From Dastarcus helophoroides (taxonomy: Eukaryota > Arthropoda > Insecta > Coleoptera > Bothrideridae), in the NCBI GenBank assembly GCA_028583605.1, contig CM053333.1, forward strand, positions 14,612,638 through 14,676,637: a stretch of 64,000 nt of DNA, given 5' to 3'. Shown here in pieces: positions 8,701 to 62,735 of the stretch (positions within the stretch are counted from its first letter, which is position 1; each line of letters begins with the position of its first letter). The notes below the pieces were generated by a model. That model was given only the letters and a program-made list of their open reading frames with translations. It did not search any database and was not told the DNA's origin. Both the position numbers and the translations under genes were made by a program.

Positions 8701-11700
8701 TGTAAATCAACATCAAGCTGAAAACTGGGTTAAGGTTTGTAAAACAAAATGCGAAATTGATAATCTTATTAATTTCTTAGATGTATAATAATAAAATTAA
8801 TTGCAAACTTTAATATATCAAAGTCCGAAGAATTATTTACATATCATGGTTTTACAAGGTTTGTCTCCTATTTTGTTTTATTGCCTATTCCTAATAAGTC
8901 GTTTCATGTGCAGCGTTAATTTCAAAGTTCTGTTACCTCGATTTGGCGGAATTTAATGTACTTCTATTTTAGTGTTCCCCTAGGGGTAATCTTGCGGAAA
9001 CCCCGTCGTTTAATAATCTGAAGTTATTAATTCTTATACCTGTACATATATTTAAGGCACATTAAAATATTCAAATCATTACAGCGTGCAAAAAATTTAT
9101 AAAAATTATACCTTAGTTGAAATATTAAATTACAATAGACCATTTCCTCTAATGCCATTAGAATATCGTATGAACGATTGACTCACACTAAACAATTAAC
9201 AATTAAAATTCTGGGAGACTGATATCTAATTAAGTTCCGATAGTCCCTCTTTGGAAAAAATTTGTTTTTGTTTTTATCGAGATGTTGGCATAGATATAAG
9301 CGCTTAAATGACAAGCTGGATATCTATGTAGATACCGTTAAAGCCTAACAAGCTTCATTAGAATATAAATACCCCTGCACAAGCCAGGTATTAATTTGAA
9401 AATTTTTCATTTCAGTACTATATATTAAGCATAATGTAATAGGAATTTACTATGTGACAACGGCAAATAAATTGAGACTCGGGCTTCGACAGATCAATGT
9501 CTATGAATTAATAAATATTTTAAATTTATTCAAATTATGCGCATGTATTACAAACTGTTTCTTCACTAGAATGACTTTCAATGGGAAATGAGTGCAGGCA
9601 CAAATTTTTAAAAGAAACCTTGGTCTAGAGTCAGAGTTGTAAACTACCTGCCCAAGGGCCGATGATTCTGTATACTGTCCCAATCACAATTATGATTTAT
9701 GGCTCTCTCTTCTAGGCTACTTGGGGATGAAACTGAAAAATTATTTTCAACACTTTTTAATGAACTTACCCAAACGAGCTTATAAACACGTCTTAATGTT
9801 ATTCAAGCAGCGAGCCTATAATTTCTGTACTATTCATATAAATTTCAGTTATTTATATCTCATAGGTGTATGTATGGTAACAACGTAATAATAATAATTT
9901 ATGGTTTTGATAACTTCCGACGTTGTCAGAAAACAGAAACCGTTTTATTTGCAACTTAACATGAATGAATTAAATATGACACTGGAGAAGTAATAAACTA
10001 GCCTTGACGGACGTTAATCTCGTAACAATGCCATAAAATGTCCACCAAATATACCAGATTTAGAATTTTTTTCAAGTTTAATTACTGGCTAGGTACAAAA
10101 GTTCTTGAAACACAATCTTCCAAGAAATGATTATGAAAAACGTATACTTCAAGCGTCATTGATATGGTTGACATATCATTTATTATTTCGTAGAAGTCTA
10201 ATAACAAATAAAATGAATAATTATACCTTTTTTCTCCAACAATATCAGAAGGTGGATAGGTCTAATTTTATCACTGAAAAGAGTCGACTTTGATAAATTT
10301 AGAAAATTTGCTCAGTCTACAGCTTTTTTCTGCAGCTTATTTTTCCCAAATGAAGTAGCGAACTGATGAATTGGGGTGAAGGGCAGAGGAACACATTTTT
10401 AACTAAAAGAAGAACTAATAATCTAAATAAAAAATGCAGCAATCAATTAACTCTTTCAAGAAAGTTTCGGGTTTCTATGTGAGAAATTAAAAACTACATC
10501 TAGTAACACTGATTTAGAGAAAAATTTAAATCTCACAAAAAACTCAAAACTTCGAATATATCGATTTTTTTCTCCAAATTGCCTTTTCCAATGAATTTCA
10601 ATTTTTACAAAGAAACTCCAGTTTTTCCCAACTTTCGACTTAAATTACCCTGCCATGGCTTTTTCAAAATTTGGACTCTAATAACAAATTTTAACTTTCA
10701 TTTCCAAATTTAAATCTCTATTCAAGATTTAATTTCATTTATTTTTCAATCATGGCTCTCAACTCAAAATGTAGACTATTTTCTCGTAATCTCGAGTTTT
10801 TCTTTAAAAATTTCGATTTTAGTACCGATATGTTGATTTTAATCTAGTTTATATTTTAAACTCGAACATTCTTTATTCATCTCGAAATTTTAAGGTTAAT
10901 TTCGTTTGAATTTTCAACATAAAGTTTCGATTTATTTTAAGAATTTTGAGTTCAATCTCTAAAGTTTGAATTAAAAGTCAAAAAAAATTAAATCGTTAAT
11001 TCAGCGTTCGAGAAAAAAATAGACATTCCTGAAAAAACTTGAATTTACTTTTCGGCATATCAATTTTTTCTTAAAATTTTCAGTTTCAACTCGACCTTCT
11101 TTGACTTTTTTTGGAATAATTTACATTTTTTTTTTGGAAAATTAGAGCTTTCTTTCCAAATGCTAATGATTTATTTCATCCACATTTAATTTAATTATAA
11201 ATTTCGTAATTTTGTACATTTCGATTTTAATTTTCAGCTTGATATCGAAGTTTCAGGAAAATTTTAAATTAAATCCTAAAATTCTGAGGCAAAGGCAAAA
11301 ACTATGACCAATTTCTCAAAACTTTTAATTTATTGATTTTTATTTTTTCTAGCTAAAAATTTTCCCAAAAAGTCGAAAAATTTGTTGACTACGTTTTGAT
11401 ATATTATGTATACTTAAAACTTTGGTTTTAATCTCGAATTTTGAAATTGAAACTAAAAATTTTAGAGATAAAATGTAAGGAATTTCAGAAATAAAGTACA
11501 AAGTTTGAATTTAAAGCCAGAGAATGCGAGTTTGTAGTGGAAAATTTATGTAAAAAAAATTAATAAATTGAAATCTTAAATTAAGAATATCAATTTTTGT
11601 GAAAGTTTCAGTGTCAACTCAAAAATTTTAATTTTTCGAATGTTTTTGAAAGATTTAAAATTTTTTCAAAACTTTTCGTTTTTACAAATAGGTATTTCGC

Positions 11701-12031
11701 CTTTTTCGCGCCAAGTGCTGATTATTATCCTATGGAAATTTTAAGTTTCATCTCAAACCTCATATTATTTCTGGAAATTTCTGATTTAACATTTTTACTT
11801 TACCATCTAAATATCAGAAATAAAATTGAAAATTTGGATTTAAGGTAAAAAAATTCGACTTTGATGTCAAAATTTTAAGTAAAAATTACACGTATACACA
11901 TATCGATTTTACACCAAAATTTCAGACAAAAATGTAGGAAGGTTCACATTTAAATTAAAAATTTTTAGTAGAAGTTTCGAGAAAAAGCTTGAAATTTGTA
12001 AAGTAAAAATTTCTCGAAAGTTCGAGTTTAG
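5796..12031. other. Long gene-free spacer
   Basis: 6060-7700 and 10500-12030 are degenerate A/T-rich motif sequence of the aaatttcga type. 7800-10300 is more complex but unrecognised, with short ORFs only. The 62-codon ORFs at 5863 and 10105 and the 64-codon ORF at 8196 show no domain and no coding signature. I see no RNA gene or transposon ends here. Confidence 0.5.
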
Positions 12032-12080
12032 GGCACTGCTGACGAGCTCAAATGAGAGTGAAACGTCGATGTCCAGTGCT
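12032..12080 (+). ncRNA. Hammerhead ribozyme, complete consensus (type I)
   Basis: All conserved parts are present. Stem I is ggcactg (12032-12038) with cagtgct (12074-12080). The core is CTGACGA (12039-12045). Stem II is gctc/gagt closing an aaatga loop (12046-12059). GAA is at 12060-12062. Stem III is a short acgt/atgt hairpin (12063-12072), giving the cleavage triplet GTC with scission after C12073. Only one pair in stem II and one in stem III are G-U. Short stem III and an open stem I are the features described for hammerheads in Penelope-like elements, retrozymes and some insect satellites. A T7 run follows at ~12087-12093. I find no second copy of this family in the window, so its host repeat is unknown. 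Confidence 0.8.
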
Positions 12081-13185
12081 ACAAGCTTTTTTTACGTTTT
12101 TTATATTTTTTATATTTTCGTAATTTATTTTAAAAAAAAATATATGTCTAATTTTAGTCTTCTATATTTCTTTTTTTTCTATTATATGTAAAAGAAACTG
12201 ACCCATTTTTGTCAACTGTTATTAGGTGACGTTTTAAAAAATTTCGATATCACGTAGTCATATTTCAAAAAATATTTCTGAATATTGTCAACTTTCATTA
12301 CTTCTACTACATTACTACTACTACTACTACTACATTTAAATAATTCCAAACTGAGTCGCAGAAATGTTAAATAAAATAAATAAACATAAAAAAAGATAAC
12401 TGAAAATCTAGACCTGTGAAAAAAGCAGCTGGCGGAGAAAATGCCGCTCAATAAATAACCGATATCTCGATATTGGAGCGAAAATTTTAACGAAAAAGTA
12501 AATAATGTTAAGCTTAAACTAGATGTTTTGAAAGTTCTGAGTTTGAATTTAAAACTTAGGGAAAACAGTAAGAATTTTTGGGGATAAATCACAAAATTTA
12601 TTTTTAAAAAACCAGGTTATAAATTTAAAAGCAATTTAATATCAACAGTTTGACTTTAAAGGGAATAATCGAGTTCTCAGAATCTGATATTTTTTTCTCA
12701 AAATTACGACTTGTAAAATCAGAAATTCCAAAAGAAAAATGTTGAAGCTTGCTGATGAAAGTCAAATTGCAATAAAAAAGTTAAAATTTCAAGATTAAAA
12801 TCAAGAGTTAAAAAATGTTGGACAAGGTTTTTCCTCAATATTTTGACATTTGTTTTTAAATTCTGGGTTTAACCTTGTAATTTTTACTTTTGCTAAAAAA
12901 TTCGACTTTGAATTTTAAATTTTTCAATAAATTTTTCCTTTTTTCTGTTGAACTAGTTTTGAGCTGGTTTTTTAAAAATGTGAAGTTCCTTTCAACATTT
13001 CAACTTTTGCTTAAGTTTTTAGCTCACTCTTTTGATTGTTGATTTTTTTCTAATAAAATTTCGAAATTTTGACAAAATTTTTAGCAAAAGTCATAATTTG
13101 GAATTAACACTCGACATGAACAAAATAACGATTTTAAATTCAAACTGAAATTTTTGGAAATGATTTTCTACGAATCTACTCAAAA
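12081..13185. other. A/T-rich spacer with (ACT)n microsatellite
   Basis: Contains an ACT/CTA trinucleotide run at ~12302-12334. The rest is A-rich motif sequence. The 126-codon minus-strand ORF at 12212-12592 is rich in Ser, Phe and Leu from A/T bias and the microsatellite, with no domain, and is left out as spurious. Confidence 0.5.
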
Positions 13186-15885: not shown

Positions 15886-15925
15886 GAATCTTTTAGTGTC
15901 TACCTGATTTGACAACACCAAACAA

Positions 15926-16549
15926 GGACCCTACCTCCGAAGCTCACAAATATTTCAACCAGTCTATTGCATTAAACTACTATTATTATTTATTGCTAAA
16001 ACGCAAAAAGTACTTTTTAACCAAAATTTGCATATTCCATTGATCACTTTGCGCGCATTTGAACTTGATTCCAATCAAGTTAAATTAGTCAAACATTTAA
16101 TAAAAAGCTGAAGTATTTCTGTTCAGGTTTTCTTATAAAAAGTAGTATAAAAAGGCAATAAAACATAACAAATAGTTGGGAAAAAGTAATATTTTTTGTA
16201 GTTGAATAACAGTCAGTTACTACTTAATAAGCTGTAAGGACCCAACCTCGGAAGCTGACAAATATTTCAACCGGTCTATTGCATTAAACTACTATTATTA
16301 TTTATTGCTAAAATGCCAAAAGTACTTTTTAATCAAAATTTGCATATTCCATTGATCACTTGCGCGCAATTTGAACTTGATTCCAATCAAGTTAAATTAG
16401 TCAACTTTTTTATAAAAAGCTGAAGTATTTCTGTTCAGGTTTTCTTATAAAAAGTGGTATAAAAAGGCAATAAAACATAACAAATAGTTGGGAAAAAGTT
16501 AAATTTTTTGTAGTTGAATAACAGTCAGTAACTACTTAATAAGCTGTAA
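15926..16549. repeat. Two-copy tandem duplication, 312-bp unit
   Basis: Copy 1 is 15926-16237 and copy 2 is 16238-16549, head to tail with no spacer. Both start ggaccc.acctc.gaagct and end aataagctgtaa. Only a few percent of positions differ. The unit contains no ORF, no RT motif and no hammerhead core. It lies 40 bases upstream, in the minus-strand sense, of the RTE fragment. Confidence 0.9.
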
Positions 16550-19684: not shown

Positions 19685-21494
19685 AAGGGATGGCCAAAAG
19701 TAACGAATAACATTCATATCTTTTGAATGAGTTAACTTTCTTTAAAACTCGGAAACGTTAACTGATCTTAATTTGTTTCCATCTTTCGGTTATACAATAA
19801 TTAATTTTTCTTCAACCCCCTAACCCCCAGCTACCACTACTTTTTTTTCTCAAATGGAAACATAGGCATAAGGGGGCTCGTTGAAAAGCTTAAAGAAAAC
19901 CCAATCCATACCAAATAAACAAGTTTTATGTTTTCAGTAACAAGTTTTTTTTATTTAGAAATTGAAACAACTAGATAATTTACAAAAATAAACTCAATGC
20001 CGCTTATGCTGAAAATGTCTTCAATTCACTATTTGACATTAATAAGACGATAATAAAAGCTGTCCACAGCATTTCGAATGAGTTCAGCTGGTAAATTATG
20101 CATCTCCACCCTAATCTTGTTCTTTAAATTCTATTTATTTATATTTAAATTGTATTTATCTATGTATCCGGTCTTTCCTGGTAGACCCTTTCTTTCAAAT
20201 ATCCCGAAAGAAAATAATCCAGGGCATTAAGTCGGGGGATCTTGGTGGCCATTCAATTGCACCCCGTCTGCCAATCTAATGATTTGGAAATATTTCATCT
20301 AAGTATCTTCGAACATCAATACCAAAATGTGAGGGAGCGCCATCTTGTTGGAACCAAATTCTTTCATTCAGTATATCTGGATCAATTCCATGAGGGAAAA
20401 TCACAGTTAGAGCAGGTATCAGGTCAAATGTTGGGAAATCCAGGTAGCGTGCGGCAGTAAGATTATCTTCAAAAAAGAATGGGCCCAAGATTATGTTGTT
20501 GATAATGTCTGCCCATACATTAACTTTCTGAGGGTGTTGCGTATGCGATGCGCATGTCCAGTGTGGCATTTCCTGGGACCAAAGGCTATAGTTGTGCCTG
20601 TTAACCACTCCATTTTAATAAAACGTAGCTTCATCCGAAAAAAGTACGTCCCGGTGAAAACCATTATTGTCGTCACACCGCCTCATAATTTCCGCACAAA
20701 ATTGTAATCGCCTATTATAATCGTCTTCCAAAAGCTCTAGAACAAAACATACTTTATACTGGTTAAAATATGAGGATTTTCAACAAGTCATTTTGGGCAA
20801 AGGGCAAAGTCTATACTGTACCGTGTTCCTTAAATTTGTGAAATACGCTACTAACTGTCCCTTGCGAGATTTGATTTTCGGGATATTTCGCGTTAAAAAA
20901 TCGCGCACTTCAGCCTGATTCTTTATTTTGACTTCACATCCAAGCAATATCAAGATTTCGATGCGTTGCCTTTCGGACAATATCATTGCGATTCAGTAAA
21001 TAACTTGATTTTTACACAGTAGTAACCAACTAGTATTAACCGAAAGTGTGGCAAATAAGTGGTACCGAAGAAACGCAACATAAAAAAATAACTTTTTTGT
21101 GTTAGCAGTGGTAGGTACAGTTTCACATTCTTTATTTTGTTCTGTGCAAATTTATGGAGGATAACACTGAAGATAATTAAATTTTATTTCACTTCTTAAG
21201 TAGGTGTTTTATGCAATCCTAAAAACCTCGCTACTGAATACATAAAACTTGTTTATTTGTTATGGCTAGATTCAGTTTTCTATTATCTTTTCAACGAGCT
21301 TTCTCATACCTTATGTTTCAATTTAAGAAAAAAAAAGTAGTAGTAACTGGGGGTTAGGGGGTTGAAAAAAAATTAATTATTATATAACCGAAAGATAGGA
21401 ATAAATTAAGATCGGTTAGCGTGTTTCGGCGTTTTAAAGAAAACGAACTCATTCAAAAAATATCAATTTTATTTCATACTTGTGGCCACTCCTG
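19685..21494. mobile_element. Tc1/mariner-superfamily element with long terminal inverted repeats
   Basis: The 1810-base element is flanked by TA (19683-19684 and 21495-21496). Inverted repeats extend ~260 bases (about 19685-19945 and 21235-21494). They include ggccac/aaagt near the tips, a gaatgagtt block, a caaccccctaaccccc block and aaataaacaagttttatgt at the inner edge, with roughly 80-85% identity by eye. The transposase runs on the minus strand and is broken. Repeats of this length are unusual for Tc1/mariner, where 20-100 bases is common. Confidence 0.8.
20030..20986 (-). pseudogene. Broken Tc1/mariner-type DDE transposase
   Basis: The N-terminal helix-turn-helix starts MILSERQRIEILILLGC at 20986. 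The catalytic region shows SDEATFY (first Asp) immediately followed by a stop at ~20615. It then continues NRHNYSLWSQEMPHW, PQKVNVWADI, and IWFQQDGAPSHFG (second Asp), and ends EWPPRSPDLMP (third Asp) before a frameshift. The tail in another frame reads LPAELIRNAVDSFYYRLINV and ends at ~20030. The catalytic residues survive, but at least one stop and two or more frameshifts make it non-functional. It belongs to the element delimited by the TA-flanked inverted repeats. Confidence 0.85.
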
Positions 21495-26471: not shown

Positions 26472-28061
26472 TCAACCTACAGTTGTTGTTACAATTTCCC
26501 CATCACTATTTAAGGATCTATGAACTAACAATGGTGTCTTAGGAACTGAGTCTGGAAGATCAATCACTTTCGTCGTAACGCGCTCTTTGGGAGGAGTAAG
26601 CTCCTCTTTAGGTCGAATCTCCACGGAATCCTCCTGATTACTAAGAGAATCATCCAAAGGTAAATTACCTTGTCTAGCCTCATCAACAGCCCGAGTTCCA
26701 TTACCGTTAATCAACGGTGTCTTCTCAGCCGACGTTCCTTTCTCATTAACTGGTTTTTCAATATGACCCCCGTTTGTATTCTCGTTGAGAGTTTTCATTT
26801 CCTGACATTTAGCATCTTCAAGTAAAGAATTCCTCCTAGGCGATCCCTTCTTCTGCTTATTCCCCCGCCTTCTAACCACAAAACAAACCGTTAAGGCTAT
26901 TAAAACCAAAGACACAATTCCCACGATAAAATAAGTGTAACTATCCGAGCTGCTTCCAACAGAAGCTCGCTCAAGTTGCCCAATTTTTGTTGCATTTGTG
27001 GAAATCAATTCGCCGTCTTTATCACTAGCTTTTTCGGTTGACGATTCTTCTTTTGGAGAAGTCGCCAAATCTGGTGTAATCTCACTGCTACTAACAGCAC
27101 CCTCTGTGGTTTCTACCTCGCTTTCCTTTGGATTGCCAAAGAGGTCTCCAAACACAATTTTAAACTGTTCCCTGAGTGTAGGGGGTGGGGACGCATGTTG
27201 CTCATCGTTGCTACCCACAGGGTCAGGCGTCGAGCAATTCGATATACAAGCTTTCGGAAGTTCGAAATCACCGCTACCTTCATCACCACTACCCTCAAAA
27301 TCATTAAAAAGATTATCCATCTTGCTTTCTTCCCCTTGCTCAATCTTAGGAGTTTTGGTATCCGTCCTCATGAATTCCTGATCATCACTATCATGTGTTT
27401 CCTCAGCTTCAATAACTCCTTGATCCCCCATCATCAGGTTGAGAAGGTTACTAGTTATCACAGAGCAGTTCAATGAACTAACCGATCGTCCTGAGAATTC
27501 AGGCGTATACTGACATGTTACGTCCTCTGGAATATGAACGTGTTTCTTGAGTTCTTTAAAGTTAGATACAGTGTCGCAATCACACACAACAGGATTGTTG
27601 TTCAAATGCAACGTTTTGAGTGCTTTCAAGCTACTCCAGTCTTTTGGTATATGAGCAATGGAATTCCATGAAAGATCCAAGATTTCCAAACTTTTTGGAA
27701 ACGAAGTTGCCCTAAGGTCCTCGATATCGTTATGTCTTAGATTTAAATACTTCAATTTCGGCAAATATGGAAAGTGTGATGTTGAATCGATGTTGTTGAA
27801 GGATAGATCTAGCGAACGAAGGTTCTTGAAATATTTAATTCTTGGGTCTATTTCTCTTTGGGCTGAATCACTTAAATCCAGATATTTGATGTCATACAAG
27901 AGCTTGGTATGACTAGTAGTTAGGAAGTCTAATGACGAACATTTGGCTTTTATGTGTTCTTTAACGATCACTTCGCACTTGCAGTACTCTGGGCATGGAA
28001 GTATATGGGCGGTTTGACTCGCTTGCAAAGCGCTAAGGAATAGTAGAATTTTTTTCCACAT
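26472..28061 (-). CDS. wdp: Windpipe-like LRR transmembrane chondroitin sulfate proteoglycan
   Basis: The product is 529 residues. A signal peptide covers 1-18 (WKKILLFLSALQASQTA). The LRR N-terminal cap has cysteines at ~23, 27, 29 and 41. About four LRRs follow at ~55-155 (LDLSFNNI, LNLRHNDI, LDLSWNSI, LHLNNNP). The C-terminal cap starts VVCDCDTV at ~158. An acidic juxtamembrane region holds two glycosaminoglycan-type Ser-Gly sites (EGSGDEGSGDFE, ~257-267). A membrane segment lies at ~376-396, then a basic stop-transfer RRRGNKQKK and a long cytoplasmic tail ending LLVHRSLNSDGEIVTTTVG. Drosophila Windpipe is a small LRR protein with chondroitin sulfate chains that restrains JAK/STAT and Hedgehog signalling; domain order, the acidic SG cluster and the tail motif agree. 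The start is the ATG at 28061, six bases after a splice acceptor; an in-frame TTG at 28076 lies in the intron. The whole coding sequence is in one exon. Confidence 0.8.
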   Translation of the reverse strand: MWKKILLFLSALQASQTAHILPCPEYCKCEVIVKEHIKAKCSSLDFLTTSHTKLLYDIKYLDLSDSAQREIDPRIKYFKNLRSLDLSFNNIDSTSHFPYLPKLKYLNLRHNDIEDLRATSFPKSLEILDLSWNSIAHIPKDWSSLKALKTLHLNNNPVVCDCDTVSNFKELKKHVHIPEDVTCQYTPEFSGRSVSSLNCSVITSNLLNLMMGDQGVIEAEETHDSDDQEFMRTDTKTPKIEQGEESKMDNLFNDFEGSGDEGSGDFELPKACISNCSTPDPVGSNDEQHASPPPTLREQFKIVFGDLFGNPKESEVETTEGAVSSSEITPDLATSPKEESSTEKASDKDGELISTNATKIGQLERASVGSSSDSYTYFIVGIVSLVLIALTVCFVVRRRGNKQKKGSPRRNSLLEDAKCQEMKTLNENTNGGHIEKPVNEKGTSAEKTPLINGNGTRAVDEARQGNLPLDDSLSNQEDSVEIRPKEELTPPKERVTTKVIDLPDSVPKTPLLVHRSLNSDGEIVTTTVG

Positions 28062-28067
28062 TGTGAT

Positions 28068-28085
28068 CTGTAACAAAAATCAGTT
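28068..28085 (-). other. 3' splice acceptor in the wdp 5' UTR
   Basis: On the minus strand, tttttgttacag precedes atcacaATG. The coding exon therefore starts at 28067, and at least one non-coding 5' exon lies at higher coordinates. Confidence 0.65.
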
Positions 28086-37744: not shown

Positions 37745-37780
37745 ACAATATTTTTATTCTAATGCACAGACTCGAATCGA

Positions 37781-37850
37781 GTTGGATATCCGAAACTGAC
37801 GAAATCTAACAAAATAGAAACCATCTTTGGTTTTCAAACTTCCAATCCAA
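37781..37850 (+). ncRNA. Decayed hammerhead ribozyme, family A
   Basis: Core CTGACGA (37796-37802) and GAAA (37817-37820) remain with the stem II loop ctaacaa between them. However, stem II is reduced (aatc/aata), stem III reads accatc instead of accggt, and the base at the cleavage site is changed. The outer stem I strand gagttggatat is kept. It is recognisable by alignment to the 62 kb copies and predicted to be inactive. Confidence 0.7.
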
Positions 37851-37881
37851 TAAATATTTAAACCTTTTGGTGTGTGCATTA

Positions 37882-40800
37882 AAACTGGCATGTTTCAGAT
37901 GAAACCTCAATGTCGGACCATAGACACATCCGGTTCGATATAGAAAACTGAAATAAACGCTTTCAGTGAATACAGAAACCCCAAATTAACCGATTGGGAT
38001 CTATGTAGAACCAAACTTAAATCGGCAATTAATGATAACAACTACTCAATTGAAACGGTTGATGATTTAGAATTTTATGCTAACGAAGTGAGAGCTCTCA
38101 TAATAAACAGTTATGAGCACAGCTGTCCAGTAAAACGAAGGGTTGTAAATAAATCGTCACCCTGGTGGTACAGGACGCTCAGCCAATTAAGAGCTGAAAC
38201 AGTTCAATAAGGCTAGACGCACCAATAACTGAGGCGAATACAAAAAAGCCTTAACAGAATACAACAAAGAACTTAGAAGATCTATAAGGAAATCATGGAG
38301 GAGCTTTTGTGAGGGGATAAAGATGTGCCCCAGTCAATGCGACTCCAGAAAATCCTATCCAAAGATCACTCGAACGGAATAGGACTTCTCCAACACCAAG
38401 ACGGAATGTAAGATTGCTTATGCGAACTCATTTTCTGGGATCTACAGAAATTGAAAATACCCATAACAGTGCTTCGATTGCTGGGGGCCATTTACGTCAC
38501 TACAATCGAGTAAAAAGCCTGGCGGGGAAAATATTTACAAAAAGCAAGATAAAATGGGCGGTGAATTCCTTTGAGCCATATAAATCATCAGGAGAAGATA
38601 AAATCTTTTCAGCCCTACTACAACACGACATAATGGAACTTATAAATCCACTAGCTACAATTTTCAAAGCTAGTTACACGTTAAGCTACATTCCAATAAG
38701 CAGCCAAACGACCGTCTGCGCAGCCTAAATCATATAGACCCATTAGTCTAACGTCATTTCTCGTTAAAACAATGGGGAAATTATGAACCAACACAGTAGA
38801 AGCGAAGTACTGTCAAAGAATCCGCTTCATGAAAATCAATTTGCCTATCACGAAGGCAAATCCACAGACAGAGCCTTACACAATCTTGCCAAAAAGATAG
38901 AAAGTGCACAGTCAAACAAAGAAATAGCTCTTTGTGGATTTATAGACATAGAGGGTGCTTTTGATAACACCTCATATGAATCCATAGAGGCAGCAGCTAT
39001 CAAAAAAGGTTTTGAGAAACCTACCATCGACTGGATCGTCTTCATGTTAGATGGTAGGAGGATCAAAGCAACCTTAGGCATTAGGCAGTGATTCATTCAC
39101 AATGAGCGCAGCAAGGGATTGTCCCTAAGGAGCTGTTTTATCTCCATTGCTGTGGTCCATCGTGGTTGATCACCTCCTAAATATACTGCATTACTCGGGC
39201 TTTGAAGCAATAGGTTATGCAGATGATATTACTGTCATTATCAGGGGCAAAAACGATAAAATCCTGTCGGATTTAATGCAAAAAGCCCTGAACACCATTA
39301 ATAACTGGTGTTCAAAACAAGGGTTAAGTGTAAACTTAAATAAAACAATTATAATTCCTTTCACAAAGAGAAGGAAGCTAAATCTAACAACCCCCACTAT
39401 GAATGGAGTTCACCTTAACTTCTCAAGTGAGACTAAATATCTAGGAATAGTCCTAAACCAAAAGCTCACCTGGAATCCTCATTTGACTAGAATAATCAAG
39501 CGAGCCACGACAGCGTTCTGGACGTGCCGCAGATTATTTAGCAAAACCTGGGGTCTGAAACCGAAAATGATCTATTGATCATATAGGATGATAATTACAC
39601 CCCTGATGACATACGCTTCTTTAGTATGGTGGTCAAAAACAACGAAAAAGACAGCACAAACCAACTGAACCTAGTTCAAAGATATGCATGTCTGGGCATA
39701 ACAGGAGCAATGAACACCTGCCCAACAGCAGCTATGGAGGTAATGCTAGGTCTAACTCCTCTCCACCTTTTAGTGAAGAGGGAGGCATCAAAGGAGCCTC
39801 AAGATTACTGCAATTAAAAGAAATTAAAGAAGGAGGTTTCGCTGGTCAAATGGGAATCCTCAAGGAATGTAGCCCGGTGATTTTAGCAAGATCGGTTGAT
39901 TATATGCAACCCAGGTACGAATTTGATCATTCCTTTGAGATGGACTTAGACAGCCACACTGACGCTCAATCAGTACCTGAAGAAAAACACAAAATATCCA
40001 CCTGGTTTATAGGTGGATCAAAGACAGCACATGGGACTGGAGTGGGAATTTATGGCCCTAACTATAGGTTCTCTAAAGCCTTGAGAAAAGACCCAACTGT
40101 CTTTCAAACTGAAATACATGCAATATAACTCTGCGCTTACGAATGTCTTCGAAGAAACCTGAAAGGCACAAAGATCTACCTTAACTCTGACAGCCAAACG
40201 GCAATAAAGGCTCTCAGCAGCTGCCTTGTCAAATCCAAACTAGTTTGAGACTGTCAACAAACTCTAAAGCAACTGGCTAAACACAACAGGATCAGCCTTA
40301 AGTAAGTACCAGGGCACAAAAGAATACAAGGGAATGAAACTGCGGACCAACTCGCTAGAGAAGGATCTGCATCGTCATTTCTTGGACTTGAACCGGCTTT
40401 TGGTTTTTCTAAAAGACAAATCAACAATGAGGTCAAAAAATAGGAAGCAAAGTCAAGAATTTTCCACTGGAGATCATATCCAGGACCACGACGGGCAAAC
40501 AGATTCATATCTGGAACGCTTGAAAAGACAAAGGTATATTTAGAACTCAGCAAATCCGAATTGAGGATCCTAACCGGCCTCTTAACAGGACATTGCCCTA
40601 CAAGGTACCACCTCAAGAAAATGGGTCAGGCTGAAACAGACCTATGTCGCTTTTGCGCAGAAGCTGTGGGCACTGCAGAACATGTGCTATGCAAGTGCGA
40701 TGCGCTTGCACGCAAAAGGCGCATCCAACTCGGATGGGCGTCGTTAGACCCCTCAGATGTGGAAAAACTCAATCCCAGGTCCATAATAAACTTCTAAAAG

Positions 40801-40913
40801 AGTTTGAACCTGGGAAACTACATAGATGAAGGTATGCACAAAATATCTCCTTAGGTCAAGGTGCGGGGTGGACGAATAGAAACAAAAAATGACCCATATA
40901 TAATCTAATATAA
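37882..40913 (+). mobile_element. I-group non-LTR retrotransposon, 5'-truncated and frameshifted
   Basis: The insert opens inside the apurinic-like endonuclease: WHVSDETSMSDHRHIRFDIE, the C-terminal SDHRxI motif at ~37913. RT follows in fragments: 38414-38728 (SFEPYKSSGEDKIFSALLQ), 38783-39091 (QFAYHEGKSTDRALHNL; motif A FIDIEGAFDN) and 39147-39578 (motif C GYADDITVI; TKYLGIVLNQKLTW). An RNase H domain spans ~40006-40400 (TWFIGGSKTAHGTGVGIYGP, LNSDSQTAIKAL, VPGHKRIQGNETADQLA). The C-terminal zinc-knuckle-like segment (CRFCAEAVGTAEHVLCKC) ends at 40797. At least five stops or frameshifts occur. Borders are set by tgtgcatta (37873-37881) and tgtgcaata (40914-40922), a probable 9-base target duplication, and the 3' tail is TAA-rich as in I elements. 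Confidence 0.85.
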
Positions 40914-41076
40914 TGTGCAATAGAATCCTTGTCTTCTGGGACCTTTCTAGAGAGCAACCGTTTCCCTAGGTGTTTATGGTTAAACTGTTGTTAGTTCAAC
41001 TACCTATGATACACGTCTACTAGAGGGCTCCATGACTGTATCCACGTTACATTCTATTTGCATACAATATTTTTAT

Positions 41077-47529: not shown

Positions 47530-48480
47530 CGAGATGCAATACTGTTGAACCACCAAATACCCAACTTTTTAACATAATATTATTTTGCGTGTGGTCCTCC
47601 AAGAGCATATTTGGGAATTTTAAACAATTTTTCGTAACCAAAGAATTGAAATACTAATAAACTACTAAATGCTCAAAGCTTAAGTTCAAAATTATTTTGA
47701 TCAGGATTCTTCATGAAAACATTTACCAATTTTAGAGAAGGTTTCATCAAATACCCAAATTTTTAACATAATATTATGTCGCCTGGGTCTTCCAACAGCA
47801 TATTTGTGAATTTTAGAGAATTTTTCATGATCAAACAATTGAAATACTGATGAGCTAGTAAATATCCAACGTTTTAGCTCAACATTATTTTGATCAGGAT
47901 CCACCAAATTTGCAAATTTTAGTAAAGATTTTACAGGAAAAGAACTGCAATACTAACCACCAAATATCTAACTTTTTAAAACAATATTATTCTGCTTTTG
48001 GTCCTCCAAGAGCACATGTGTTAATTTTAGGGAACTTTTCTTGACCGAGCAATTGAAATACTGATGAGCTACTAGCGTTTTAGCTTAAAATTACTTTGAT
48101 CATAATCCTCAAAATTTGCAAAATTTAGTGAAGATTTCGGGGGAAAAGAACTACAATACTAATGAAGCACCAAATATCCAACTTTTTAACATAATATTAT
48201 TTAACATATGGTTCTCCAAGAGCACATTTGTGCAGGTTACAGAATTTTTCGTGATTAAACAATTGAAATTCTTAAGAACTACCAAATGTTCAATGTTTAA
48301 GTTCAAAATTATTTTGATCAGGGTCGTTCAAGAGAACATTTGCGAATTTTAAAGAAGATTTCAAGGGAACAAACAACTGTAATACTGATCAAGTATCAAA
48401 TACTTAATTTTTCAGCATAAAATTGCTTTGTCTTTGATGGTCCAAGAGGCATTTGTGATTTTTAGAAAATAGTTTATTAC
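47530..48480 (+). repeat. Diverged satellite array, ~208-bp dimeric monomer
   Basis: The landmark ccaa(c/a)tttttaacataatattat recurs at about 47571, 47765, 47979, 48188 and 48414, giving spacings of 194-226 bases. Each monomer is itself a dimer of two related ~104-base halves: one with ctttttaacataatattatttt and ggtcctccaagagcatattt, the other with gcttaagttcaaaattattttgatcagg and ttcatgaaaacattt. Divergence between copies is roughly 15-30%. There is no coding capacity. Confidence 0.85.
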
Positions 48481-49349
48481 AAAGCATTTGAAATATTCTA
48501 ATTTTTTTCTCTTAATCTCAAAAATGTGCCAAAATTCTCTATTAAACGATTTACATTTTTTCGACGTTACACTCGAAATTCGTCTTTTTAGAGTTTAAAA
48601 CTGTGGACTTTTTAAAAATAGTTTTTTTAATAAAAAAAAAGGTCTAAATGTCGAATGAAGAAGTGAAAATTTCATTCGAAATTGCTATAAAAAAATTGAC
48701 AAAAATATTTTGTGAAAAAAGTAGAACTTTCAAAAAATTTTTTAAACGCCCGAACAACATTTCAATAAAAATGTGAAACTTCAAAAAATTGGAAGATCTT
48801 ATTTCAAAAATTCACATAAAAGTTGAAATCTTACCATCAAAGACGAAATTTTCATAAATAAATCAAATTTTGGTTTAATTTCAGTGTTATCGTCATTTTG
48901 AAACACTTTGGTGAACTAACGAGTTTAAACTCATTTTTTTTTTCTATAAATTTCGAATTGGTTTGAAATTTCAACTTTTCTTGTCCTGAAATGCTAATTT
49001 AAATTTTGCAATTTTAAAAATTTTGTTTTATAAATTTTAACATTGTGGTTGAATCTTGTAATCTTCATTGTTTCCAACATTTTTTTCTTTATATTATCAA
49101 AAGACTGACTTCAATTTTAAAATGTCGACTTTGAACTCAACGTTACAAGTCTAAATTTGGATTTTTAATCTCATGTCCTAATAATACATTTTATTGTAAA
49201 TTGCCTGTAAAATAATAACTTATTAAAATTATATTTAAGTTATATTTCATTGTTTTAGGAAATGCTTGGTTCTTTATCTCATAATTCTAAAATTCCCTGT
49301 AGAATAATTTAATCTTCTTTATTTGTATCTCTACTTTTACGTTTTTTTT
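48481..49349. other. A/T-rich spacer
   Basis: Motif-rich low-complexity sequence to ~49160, then unrecognised. No gene. Confidence 0.4.
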
Positions 49350-49480
49350 AGTAGTATCGCTCTGAAGATGCAGCTTAGCTATCGAAACGCGTTAGAGCAA
49401 CGTTTGTTGTGTTTTTCAATCTTTCTTGGTTTCAGGGGACAAGTTCTGTATTTCAATTTACTTTTACCTGTTAAAGATAT
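49350..49480 (+). repeat. Dispersed repeat with CTGAAGA...CGAAACGCGTT motif
   Basis: ctctgaagatgcagcttagc, then tatcgaaacgcgttagagca and tttttcaatctttcttgg match a minus-strand copy at ~61300-61400 and a partial plus-strand copy at 61527-61570. It is therefore a mobile repeat, not a gene. The core words look hammerhead-like, but pairing fails. Confidence 0.65.
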
Positions 49481-50646
49481 TGGTTCTAATACAGCATTTG
49501 AAACCAATATAAATACTATAAAGGATTATATCTATAGATTGGATAAATTTTGCTATTCAAATAACCGCGAGGTTTGAATTTTTTTAATAATAGATTGACC
49601 CTAAATTGAGATATTTAAGATCTTGATCAGAGTTGAGTGTCCAAGTGTCCACAGACACCTAAAAAATTTTCACAAATCGGGACACCTGACAACATTATTC
49701 CGAATCCTATGATCGACCATATTTTTATTCATGGTAGCAAGAATTAATACGTTTTTTCACTTATGAAGTAAAACTGGACTAAATTACGTGATTAGCAAAA
49801 GAAGCACGGAATGGTCGTTAAGATGTTCCATACTAAGCAATTAGACTGAGAATGTCAGTTTTGCGTACGAAATACGTAACGCGTAAATGCTGCTAAATTC
49901 TGATGTGGAAAAAGGATTTTAGTAGCATCCAAAATGTTGTTAATTCAGTTATTTTTTTGTATAGTTAATATTTTTAAAAATAGTTTACGAATACTTATTA
50001 ATATTTTTACACATCAGGAGTACATTTTGTACCATTCAACTCTGAAAACAAGAAGTCAGTCGTGATGTCACTTTGGATTGATGTAAAGAAAATAGAAATG
50101 CGATATTCTTAGAAGCTGTCCACATTAAAATTTCAGCCTCCTTGGCATTATTGCTGTACAGTGTGCAGTAATTATAATAATCCGCAAAATAATTGCTATA
50201 ATTCGTATTATTACAGTTACTAGTATATAATTCCAGTAACTATAACATTAAAAATTATGATATGTTTCGTAACTGTTCAATGTTTTACATGTGGGTTTAG
50301 GATTCGACATTAGGGATGAAACAAAACAAAGACCACCCTGAATTTCTACCTCCTTGACTTCCTTGACCATAAGCTATTGGGTGTATAAACCAGACACAAG
50401 GTATTAGTTTTATCGGCAAGTTATTGGTTTTCTTTTAACTGCTATGTACATGTAACTAATACAACGAAAATAAGTCCGATAAGATAATGGTATAAATAAC
50501 TTTTAATTGAAATTATATTTGCGGTGCGTGCACCCTTATTTACTTTGTGACCAACGGAAAAACAATATTTTTATCATCGTGTACTTGAATTTAACCGATT
50601 TCCCATTTATCGCGACTTTACAACATGATTATCCACGCTGCAGTAG
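49481..50646. other. Spacer without recognised gene
   Basis: A/T-rich; short ORFs only. Nothing can be supported. Confidence 0.35.
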
Positions 50647-50782
50647 CTTAATACTTTTGATTTTTTGCACTTATTTGTTGCGGTACTACCTTTAAGTAGC
50701 CACGCTACTTGAAGGTAGTACTGCGAACGCTACTTGAAGGTAGTACCGCGACAAATAAGAGCAAGGAATTACAAGTATTAAG
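50647..50782. repeat. Inverted repeat with 54-bp arms and a third half-arm
   Basis: 50647-50700 and 50729-50782 are reverse complements with about seven mismatches. The 28-base centre (50701-50728) holds an additional copy of gctacttgaaggtagtactg, so the right half-arm is directly duplicated. There is no ORF. It may be the core of a small foldback MITE or a replication-slippage product. Confidence 0.85.
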
Positions 50783-51366
50783 CAAGAAACCCTCCTTGTC
50801 CATAATAAGCTAAACACTTTAAAAACTTTGCCACTATAAAGAAAACTGGAGAAAAAAACTAAGTGAACACATTTCGATAGATAATATAATTGGTAGATTG
50901 TTGATTTCTCGTAAAATTTTAAATACATTTGATTAATAACAAATAAACGTACAAAATTCAAACAATTTACAAAAAATTAAGCGAAACAAGTTGAATGAAG
51001 AAAATGTTTCGGCCTTATTTATGCTCTAACATTATTTTTGACCAAACGACTTGAGAAATTAATACATTAAAATTAAGCGTCCTAAATGACATTATAGCAC
51101 AACTTATACTAAAAATTTTATTATAACAAGTAGGGGTACCAAATAAAAACAACATAAAAATGTAAATGCAAAAAGTTAACGAAAAAATCCATGAAGAAGA
51201 AAATTCTTCAACCTTGGTGCACTTGACACAAAACTTTTTTTAATTGTGCAGACCTGACAAACATAATTACAACCAATCAAGGACACATTGAGAAAAACTG
51301 TCTAAATGTTTGTTCAAACATCAATAAATTATGAATATTAATCTGACCTTTGATGCAAAAATCTAA
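50783..51366. other. Spacer without recognised gene
   Basis: A/T-rich sequence. The 89-codon minus ORF (50692-50961) overlaps the inverted repeat and is not a gene. Confidence 0.35.
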
Positions 51367-59880: not shown

Positions 59881-61080
59881 CGAGGGTTGCCTTTTAAGTT
59901 TTTACAAAAAGTGAAACAGAAATGAATAAGTTCGAAACAAAGTGTTTTATTGCTTTTCGAAATATTCGTCCTTAAGGTCTATACATTGTTGCATACGCTC
60001 AAACCAAGTCTGGAAACATTTTTTCCAGTCTGAAGCTGATATCGTAGAAACATGGTTTTGAAAGTCTTCAACAGCTTCTTGAGGTGATGATAAATCGGGT
60101 GAATACGGGCAATGAGACATTAACTCGATGTTTTTCTCCTTTCAGTTGTTTGACATGTTTTATGAGAACTGGCATTGTCGTGATGAACAATGATGCGACG
60201 TTATTTGTTTTTTTTTCCTTATTTCATCGAAGACCGTTGGCAAACAAATTGTTGTATACCATTCGGTATTAACAGTTCTTCGATCCTCTAATGAAATGGT
60301 TGCGACGTGTCCAGTACAACAGAAGAAACAAGCGATCATTTTCTTGGAAGTGCTCTGTGAACGAACAACTTAAGTGGGACTGGGTTCATCATTAAACACC
60401 CAAACAGTAGACTGTTTGCTTTCAGGATCATATGAATATATCCAAGTTTCGTTGCCTGTAATAATGTTGTATACGGATTTTTTCAAGATTTCCTGACACC
60501 AATCAACACAACGCTTTTTTTGCGCTTCGGTCAAATTATGCGGAATCCATCTGGAACATATCTTTCTCACACCTAAATTTTCATACAAAATCGATTGCAT
60601 TGCAGTCTGCGATATCCTAAGAGACGTCTCTATATGTCTGTAAGTCACATGCCGATTTTCTTTAATCATGTTCCGCGCAGCATCGATGTTTCTCGGAATG
60701 ACAACCAATTTTGGCCGACCTTCTCGACATCCATCACTGACGGACGCACGACCATGATGAAATTCTGCAAACTAATTGTAAACAGTCTTCTCTGATGGTG
60801 CTTCATTACCAAAAGTTGCACAAAGCGATTCTATGCATTGCTGTTGAGTAAGGCCTTTTTTAAAATCATAAAAAATCATCCAACGTAAGCCTTCACAGGT
60901 AATTTCCATTTTTGCACAAACTTGCTTCTTTTAAACGTTCACTATCAACAACTTACTCAGTCAATTTCTAAATTGATTCTGGCTTTGCAATAACAAATGT
61001 CAATGTTCACAAATACAGTGGTGTCACAACTCATTAACGCCACCTATTGTTCGATTGTAAAAACTTAAGGGCAACCCTCG
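59881..61080. mobile_element. mariner element, irritans-like
   Basis: The inverted termini are cgagggttgccttttaagtt (59881-59900) and its complement at 61061-61080 with small differences. TA precedes the left end; on the right the equivalent bases are CA, followed by TA. Length is 1200 bases. The transposase is on the minus strand, and the flanks are unrelated A/T-rich sequence. Size and ends fit mariner elements of the irritans group. Confidence 0.9.
59947..60909 (-). pseudogene. mariner transposase with stop, D-to-N and internal deletion
   Basis: Starts MEITCEGLRWMIFYDFKKGL at 60909 and ends YFEKQ at 59947. Lesions seen: an in-frame TAG in place of Trp at TVYN*FAEF (~60777); the first catalytic Asp replaced by Asn (ITGNETWIYSYDPE); a stop after DEPSPT at 60370-60372; a frameshift in an A9 tract near 60205-60215; and a gap of about 19 codons after PYSPDL, joining it directly to SSPQEAVED. 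The second Asp (VHHDNASSH) remains. Otherwise it is typical of the family, with the HTH region, WVFNDEPSPT and WFERMQQCIDL. Confidence 0.9.
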
Positions 61081-61284: not shown

Positions 61285-61600
61285 TTGATATCGAAATACA
61301 AATCTTCTTCCCTGAAGCCAAGAAAGATTAAAAAACATAATAAAGGTAGCTTTAACGCGTTTCGACAGCCAAGTTATAATCTTCAGAGAAATACTAACAT
61401 CTAATCCTAAAATTAAGCCTTATATAGTAAGAATATTCATTTCGTGCATGATCGACCGCATCCGAATACGCATGCGCATCTAATCATACACGTCGTAGTG
61501 TCACAATGTGTATGATTAGATGCGCATGGCTGTCGAAACACGTTAGAGCAACCTTTGGAGTGTTTTTTAATCTATCTATCTATCTTCAAAAATTGAAGAT
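61285..61600. repeat. Inverted pair of CTGAAGA...CGAAACGCGTT repeats around a 21-bp hairpin
   Basis: A minus-strand copy (~61300-61400) and a partial plus-strand copy (61527-61570) face each other. Between them a perfect 21-base inverted repeat, 61471-61491 and 61508-61528, encloses a 16-base loop. A short ATCT run (61571-61588) follows. This is the same family as 49350-49480. The inverted arrangement resembles that of the neighbouring hammerhead element. Confidence 0.7.
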
Positions 61601-62012: not shown

Positions 62013-62024
62013 ATTTAAAATTTA
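62013..62024. repeat. Left target-site duplication
   Basis: atttaaaattta, identical to 62724-62735 on the far side of the hammerhead element. Confidence 0.9.
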
Positions 62025-62049
62025 CTATAATGCACAGACCAATAGGTTT

Positions 62050-62149
62050 GAACATTTATTAGATTCGAAGTTTGGAAACCAAATACCGGTTTCGATCTTG
62101 TTAGATCTCGTCAGTTTGGTATATCCAACTCGAATGCTAATAAATGTTC
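62050..62149 (-). ncRNA. Hammerhead ribozyme, family A, inverted copy
   Basis: Exact reverse complement of the ribozyme at 62450-62549. Core CTGACGA is at 62114-62108, GAAA at 62093-62090, palindromic stem III accggt at 62090-62085, and the cleavage base A at 62084. All conserved positions are intact, so it is predicted active when the minus strand is transcribed. Confidence 0.85.
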
Positions 62150-62449
62150 CGACAAGTAAGTACTAAAACTTTCACAGGCGTCGAGCGAGTGACTTTTTAG
62201 TACTACCACCTATTGGTCCATAGAGAAACTATGGCCATCGCCAACAATGTCGTATGCAAGAAGAATGCAACCTAGACTACAAATTCATGCAGCCCTCCAG
62301 GCGTGTATAGTTGAATTTGTAGTCTAGGTTGCATTCTTCTTGCATACGACATTGTTGGCGATGGCCATAGTTTCTCTATGGACCAATAGGTGGTAGTACT
62401 AAAAAGTCACTCGCTCGACGCCTGTGAAAGTTTTAGTACTTACTTGTCG

Positions 62450-62549
62450 GAACATTTATTAGCATTCGAGTTGGATATACCAAACTGACGAGATCTAACA
62501 AGATCGAAACCGGTATTTGGTTTCCAAACTTCGAATCTAATAAATGTTC
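62450..62549 (+). ncRNA. Hammerhead ribozyme, family A, intact (type I)
   Basis: Inner stem I is accaaa (62479-62484) with tttggt (62516-62521). The core is CTGACGA (62485-62491). Stem II is gatc/gatc (62492-62495, 62502-62505) with loop taacaa. GAA is at 62506-62508. Stem III is the palindrome accggt (62509-62514), and A62515 is the cleavage base (triplet GTA). Outer stem I helices continue through gga/tcc and attcga/tcgaat to gaacatttattag (62450-62462) with ctaataaatgttc (62537-62549). A loopless palindromic stem III usually means activity as a dimer or in tandem RNA, which suits a concatemeric transcript. Confidence 0.88.
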
Positions 62550-62723
62550 AAACCTATTGGTCTGTGCATTATAGAATCCTTGTCTTCTGGGAACTCTCCT
62601 AGAGAGCAACCGCTTCGCTAGGTGGCAGTGTTGCAACTGTTGGTAGTTCAGCTACCTATGATTCACCACTATACACGCCTGGAGGGCTGCATGAATTTGT
62701 AGTCTAGGTTGCATTCTTCTTGC

Positions 62724-62735
62724 ATTTAAAATTTA
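62724..62735. repeat. Right target-site duplication
   Basis: atttaaaattta, the partner of 62013-62024. Confidence 0.9.

Follow-up and report, generated by a model that had tools for sequence, protein, structure and literature searches.

The 64-kb window analysed here, a stretch of 64,000 nucleotides of the Dastarcus helophoroides genome, contains two copies of a short non-coding element that originate from one 380-nt cyclic unit, share their ends and are flanked by different target-site duplications (TSDs). In the younger copy, an antisense and a sense part of the unit are joined head-to-head. We think it reasonably probable that this is a retrozyme-like element copied from a circular or multimeric RNA by a Penelope-like enzyme, with both 3' ends of a staggered break priming the synthesis.

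The young copy spans 62025-62723 (699 nt, or to 62725 if two bases common to insert and TSD are counted). It lies between exact 12-bp TSDs, ATTTAAAATTTA, at 62013-62024 and 62724-62735, the only two places where this sequence occurs on the + strand of the window. A TSD-like match of at least 12 bases was found for 1 of 200,000 random boundary pairs (pairs less than 100 bases apart skipped). The two arms of the insert (62025-62287 and 62312-62574) show full complementarity, 263 of 263 positions, and enclose a spacer of 24 nt, in full agreement with the initial annotation, which had described a 699-base insert with a perfect 12-base TSD and identical inverted arms of 263 bases. The insert also holds a second inverted pair of 58 nt (62254-62311 and 62668-62725) and a direct repeat of 34 nt at a spacing of 380, from which it follows that it is made of 1.09 sense and 0.76 antisense units of a 380-nt repeat.

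Numbering this cyclic unit u0 to u379, with u0 at 62312, the antisense part (62025-62311, - strand, 287 nt) is the exact reverse complement of u356-379 plus u0-262, running from u262 down to u0 and then from u379 to u356; the complement of u356-379 makes up the spacer (62288-62311, - strand). The sense part (62312-62725, + strand, 414 nt) consists of one full unit (62312-62691) followed by u0-33 (62692-62725), its last two bases being those common to the TSD. Both parts can be derived from the single cyclic unit with 0 mismatches in 701 bases, and the centre junction shows zero microhomology.

The G+C content of the unit is 0.426. The 699-nt insert contains no ORF of at least 90 amino acids, and the longest stop-free stretch of the cyclic unit is 45 codons in the sense and 72 codons in the antisense direction. 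In the predicted fold of the insert transcript all 263 arm pairs are formed (-547.6 kcal/mol); such a transcript would be a 263-bp hairpin and possibly a source of double-stranded RNA (dsRNA). Rfam matches to MIR841 and mir-578 over the insert fall below the cut-off and are probably a mere reflection of the perfect palindrome. The lack of divergence between the arms had been taken in the initial annotation as a sign of recent mobility, a plausible reading rather than a proven one: two arms derived from a single RNA would be identical from the outset, and the arms of a palindrome can be homogenised by gene conversion.

An Rfam scan of the 64-kb window returned 0 matches at the gathering level. 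At an E-value threshold, RF02275 (Hammerhead_HH9) matched on both strands, at 62467-62538 (+) and 62061-62132 (-), each with 34.4 bits against a gathering score of 52 and an E-value of 6.9e-5 for the 64-kb window; the match takes in the entire 77-position model, core and stem II included. The initial annotation had proposed two intact hammerheads, to be detected by Rfam models on both strands. An HH9 core does occur on each strand, at the E-value threshold and not at the gathering level, but what is present is one hammerhead in two orientations, with no same-direction pair. As one hammerhead was copied into both arms, the two are not independent.

The features of a type I core are present: CTGACGA (at 62485 in the sense hammerhead), GAAA, stems I and II, and an A-U pair closing stem III. 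Under the hammerhead rule, cleavage is predicted between 62515 and 62516. A motif scan for the full core with a 6-bp stem I and a stem II of at least 4 bp found three sites in the window, at 62485 (+), 62114 (-) and 12039 (+), the third unrelated in sequence; 100 order-1 Markov sequences of 64 kb gave 0 hits. The site at 12039 falls in a separate, well-formed type I hammerhead at 12028-12096 (+; HH9, 31.2 bits, E 7.6e-4), which has an unrelated sequence and lies in AT-rich DNA. No hammerhead repeat was found near it within 11500-12700, and an exact-pattern scan of viral contigs gave 0 matches.

When folded freely, the 72-nt hammerhead region of the insert takes a structure of -19.0 kcal/mol that is not a hammerhead; held to stems I and II, it reaches -15.4 kcal/mol. 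Unlike HH9, the insert has a stem III without the 5-nt loop, and ACCGGU stands between GAA and the cleavage base. Since this stem III sequence is self-complementary, pairing with itself in a dimer, and leaves no space for a loop, activity would be expected mainly between two copies, and we infer from the sequence that the hammerhead is active mainly as a dimer. A dimer fold of the region produced no hammerhead dimer and was set aside because such folding ignores the tertiary core. A core-pattern search of the unit for an opposite-strand hammerhead, as in a symmetric, viroid-like cycle, found none.

The older copy lies at 37758-41063. When the doubled unit was compared with the window by blast, pieces were returned at 37777-37881 and 40914-41074; nhmmer with the same query recovered, at E < 0.01, no window sequence besides the insert and the two parts of the older copy. 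These parts adjoin each other in the unit (1-based positions 155-260 and 252-425) yet lie about 3 kb apart, with a reverse transcriptase fragment between them (RVT_1, 39129-39578), indicating that a later LINE-like insertion (37882-40913, +, boundaries approximate) splits the copy. The first sense piece (37777-37881, +; 91 identities, 14 mismatches, 1 gap) carries a decayed hammerhead that was missed by Rfam (E up to 5) and by the motif scan. The second (40914-41063, +; 126 identities, 24 mismatches, 13 gaps) runs through u379/u0 to u33.

The older copy is bounded by matching 13-bp TSDs, ACAATATTTTTAT, at 37745-37757 and 41064-41076; this AT-rich 13-mer has one further occurrence in the window, at 50562. 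The left TSD is immediately followed by an inverted left end, TCTAATGCACAGAC (37758-37771, -), which is antisense to u248 through about u263-265 with a 2-nt gap and whose 12-mer core is present in the unit only in antisense. Beyond five unassigned bases, the sense sequence sets in at about u154 and reaches u33, where the right TSD follows; the older copy thus contains less than one unit. The initial annotation had reasoned that copies sharing only the same flanks would speak against transposition, and the one other copy, within the 64-kb window, has a different TSD. This older copy, the fixed ends and the circular permutation are new with respect to that annotation.

In the young copy the inverted start is u262 and the end u31-33; in the older copy, allowing for bases shared with the TSD, they are u263-265 and u33-35. 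The internal junctions differ, u356/u0 in the young copy versus about u248/u154 in the older one. Given that the targets and the ages are different and that both ends agree within a few bases, both ends of the element look fixed, as judged from the sequences of two copies in one 64-kb window. Of 59,916 other positions in the window, 3 carry an exact 12-mer of the unit, which makes a chance origin unlikely for the one at the left border of the older copy. The inverted end of this copy has only 14 nt, however, and could be a deletion remnant. The right end of this copy is less sharp because its TSD resembles the unit past u33 (8 of 11 bases).

Together, the two TSDs are A or T at 24 of 25 positions (binomial P 0.0012 against a window AT of 0.69). 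The flanks of the young copy have an AT content of 0.69 and those of the older copy one of 0.78, which makes the AT preference weaker for the latter. Exact-pattern scans of viral and prokaryotic contig collections gave 0 matches, a result of little weight since these collections may omit near records.

To judge by most of the features tested, the element functions as a metazoan non-LTR retrozyme would. Such retrozymes are described as direct tandem repeats of units of about 170-400 nt with a GC content below 50% (PMC7229834, available excerpts). By these excerpts the resemblance covers the type I hammerhead with a core that appears intact in sequence, the 380-nt unit with 43% GC, the TSDs of more than 4 bp (12 and 13 bp) and the lack of any visible coding region; the element likewise has copies at different targets, with one other copy within the 64-kb window. 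It differs from metazoan retrozymes in being head-to-head, with an inverted left end, a direct repeat of only 34 nt and a second hammerhead that is inverted. Because the direct tandem arrangement with hammerheads in the same direction is absent, we call it retrozyme-like rather than a full member of the group. The weak helix III recalls the dimeric hammerheads of amphibians, whose retrozymes, with a helix III of one pair and a tetraloop that is palindromic, act as dimers. Most invertebrate retrozyme hammerheads, in contrast to the apparently dimer-dependent one of 62025-62723, cleave as monomers (PMC7229834, the same excerpts).

Head-to-head retrozyme copies with common ends were not found in the literature searched. 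The word "inverted" is absent from the main text of PMC7229834; in the available parts of PMC7761336 and PMC4918200 it occurs only in a reference title and in an abbreviation, respectively, and in that of PMC11722881 "inverted repeat" is used only of back-splicing and viroids. The findings support the original reading of the insert as a non-autonomous retroelement whose type I hammerhead nearly lacks stem III, with an RNA unit of about 380 nt and a link to retrozymes and Penelope.

By analogy, the insert at 62025-62723 may be regarded as the plan of a Penelope-like element (PLE) in miniature. A typical Penelope copy, for EN-containing PLEs, has direct pLTRs and, next to them, an inverted one; head-to-head is the most frequent form of the inverted junctions, three examples have TSDs of 8, 9 and 10 bp, some copies have direct pLTRs only and some lack a TSD (PMC3846280, available excerpts). 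That PLE copies may have inverted pLTRs is also stated in an excerpt of PMC8969392. The likeness, as far as these excerpts go, extends to the partial tandem, the inverted copy on the 5' side, the head-to-head junction, the short TSD, the AT-rich target and the internal start of reverse transcription. In vitro, the purified PLE protein of Anolis cleaves and extends both strands, with a preference for AT-rich ATT sites, and begins copying at two adjacent positions within the RNA (PMC11167929). For PAc, start sites are alike on both strands, and hammerhead mutants still inserted, which shows that unprocessed RNA can be the template (PMC11167929).

Several points speak against a Penelope reading, among them the like start sites of PAc on both strands, the insertion of its hammerhead mutants and the PLE copies that have direct pLTRs only or lack a TSD. 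There are also differences from PLEs. A PLE has an ORF for a reverse transcriptase and a GIY-YIG endonuclease, whereas the 699-nt insert has no ORF and could only be a passenger of a PLE. The hammerhead of the insert is canonical and that of PLEs minimal; the starts of the insert lie 151 (or 229) nt apart round the unit; and the 30-40-nt tail of PLEs, which is optional and separates two start sites, is not seen. PLE mobility is said to depend on element-specific pLTRs (PMC3846280, available excerpts), and none was recognised in the insert. No PLE gene was recognised among the 10 of 32 listed ORFs of the window that were scanned with Pfam; RVT_1 fragments were found in 3 of these 10.

The mechanism that we favour would begin with a 380-nt non-coding unit whose RNA, carrying the type I hammerhead, is a circle or a multimer. 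Such a template is needed because both parts of the insert, like the older copy, cross u379/u0 and the predicted cleavage site, and because the sense part makes more than one lap. A Penelope-like reverse transcriptase/endonuclease would cut AT-rich DNA with a stagger of about 12 bases, and the 3' end of each strand would then prime reverse transcription on the circular or multimeric RNA, with the top strand starting at u262-265 and the bottom one at about u33. The top-strand 3' end would give the cDNA that forms the antisense part, 62025-62311, and the 3' ends of the two cDNAs (287 and 414 nt) would be linked to each other in the absence of microhomology, producing the head-to-head insertion. 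A head-to-head insert that carries a TSD is most simply explained by priming from both 3' ends; we infer that the template was circular, that the enzyme was Penelope-like and that both strands served as primers. The copy at 62025-62723, having no two hammerheads in the same direction, should release no circle and is probably a dead end for the element.

A different enzyme could in principle have produced the same arrangement. In LINE-driven twin priming, the reverse transcriptase of a LINE would copy the retrozyme RNA by target-primed reverse transcription, and the end of the second strand would prime by chance. LINE-like RVT_1 fragments occur in the window, and the TSD length and 5' inversion of LINE insertions would fit twin priming. 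However, a second priming by chance should not twice reach u262-265 in insertions of different age, and the right end of the 62025-62723 insert has no poly-A. We therefore regard this origin as unlikely.

Less probable still is self-priming, in which one cDNA (or antisense RNA) snaps back on itself and is copied. It has been published as a model for head-to-head PLE copies (PMC3846280, available excerpts), and the 24-nt loop would suit a hairpin. A single cDNA that snaps back nevertheless misfits the young copy, as neither cDNA holds the template stretch for the other: the right cDNA starts at u33 and lacks the contiguous u356-379-0-262 that the left arm needs, and the left cDNA lacks u263-355, which is present in the sense part. 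The centre junction, moreover, has no microhomology. A longer multimeric antisense template might still have served self-priming.

Because both ends are alike in the two copies, one might also think of an element with defined ends that moves whole, such as a DNA transposon or foldback element with the inverted piece already in the master copy. This is very improbable: the ends are not inverted repeats of each other (the left is the complement of u262, the right is u33), and the internal junctions differ between the copies, although a later deletion in the older copy could explain the latter. Perfect long palindromes can be artefacts of assembly or amplification, but a chimeric palindrome is hardly credible for an insert that is flanked by a 12-bp TSD, has unequal and circularly permuted parts, and is matched by an old, diverged copy with the same ends.

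Under the both-strand priming that we prefer, the positions of the two starts may be related to the structure of the RNA. In the circular fold predicted for the unit, u29-33 is paired with u252-256 and u21-25 with u261-265 (probabilities 0.63-0.81), and the two start sites would face each other across one predicted RNA helix. In the older copy the changed letters still pair (-10.7 vs -8.3 kcal/mol), and the other flank piece reaches only -4.9. The two ends fall within 10 positions but not within 8, which 4.8% of position pairs equal, and among 3,000 random segment pairs 8.5% show binding of the same strength. The predicted helix between the start sites is suggestive at best. A more specific reading, namely that the insert is the record of a Penelope-type enzyme copying one ribozyme-made circle, with each end of the break starting at a fixed site on opposite sides of a helix, is offered tentatively, as somewhat more doubtful than not.

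The window contains further genes and repeats. A windpipe-like leucine-rich repeat (LRR) gene at 26472-28079 (-) has its best match in windpipe of Zophobas morio (39% identity over 99% of the query), and the next named matches are also from beetles (among the best 120 of 420 matches). Two ORF pieces, 60370-60771 (-) and 20276-20614 (-), look by eye like mariner/Tc transposases, with no Pfam match at E <= 0.001. Two direct repeats of 312 bp, 94.6% identical, lie at 15924-16549, where the core pattern finds no hammerhead; a diverged tandem array with a period of about 210 bp occupies 47535-48495; and 50646-50783 is an imperfect palindrome with two copies of a 25-bp unit.

A 118-bp sequence at 49341-49458 (+), with a CTGAAGA...GAAACGCGTT core, stands between 9-bp repeats, TACTTTTAC, at 49332-49340 and 49459-49467. 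Sequences of the same family at 61290-61396 (-) and 61518-61577 (+), about 450 bp upstream of the insert, are arranged head-to-head around an imperfect palindrome at about 61471-61528, and no clear TSD was found for them. The core shared by 49341-49458 and 61290-61577 gave no model hit and recalls the minimal hammerheads of PLEs. The Penelope-type reading of both loci is based on the shape of the motif, on the inversion and on a 9-bp TSD found at one locus; 49341-49458 may be a short Penelope-type fragment, and a 9-bp match in AT-rich DNA can arise by chance.

PLEs have been called "a strong candidate" for the mover of retrozymes on the grounds of shared hammerheads, tandem copies and co-occurrence (PMC7229834, available excerpts), and retrozyme repeats are described as showing no conserved motif that helps to deduce the partner (PMC7761336, available excerpts). 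Fixed inverted ends with TSDs would offer a clue to the reverse transcriptase of a retrozyme, one that fits the priming of both strands by a PLE protein in vitro, and the question of which enzyme moves animal retrozymes becomes directly testable through such ends in the beetle genome. If the proposed origin is true, the machinery that moves animal retrozymes would be named and would follow a testable rule in which both ends are fixed, the arm lengths are free and the left end is inverted. Retrozyme copies would then be a simple reporter of the chemistry of PLE insertion, free of the complications of an ORF or of pLTRs, and head-to-head copies encoding long dsRNA could feed RNA silencing against the family.
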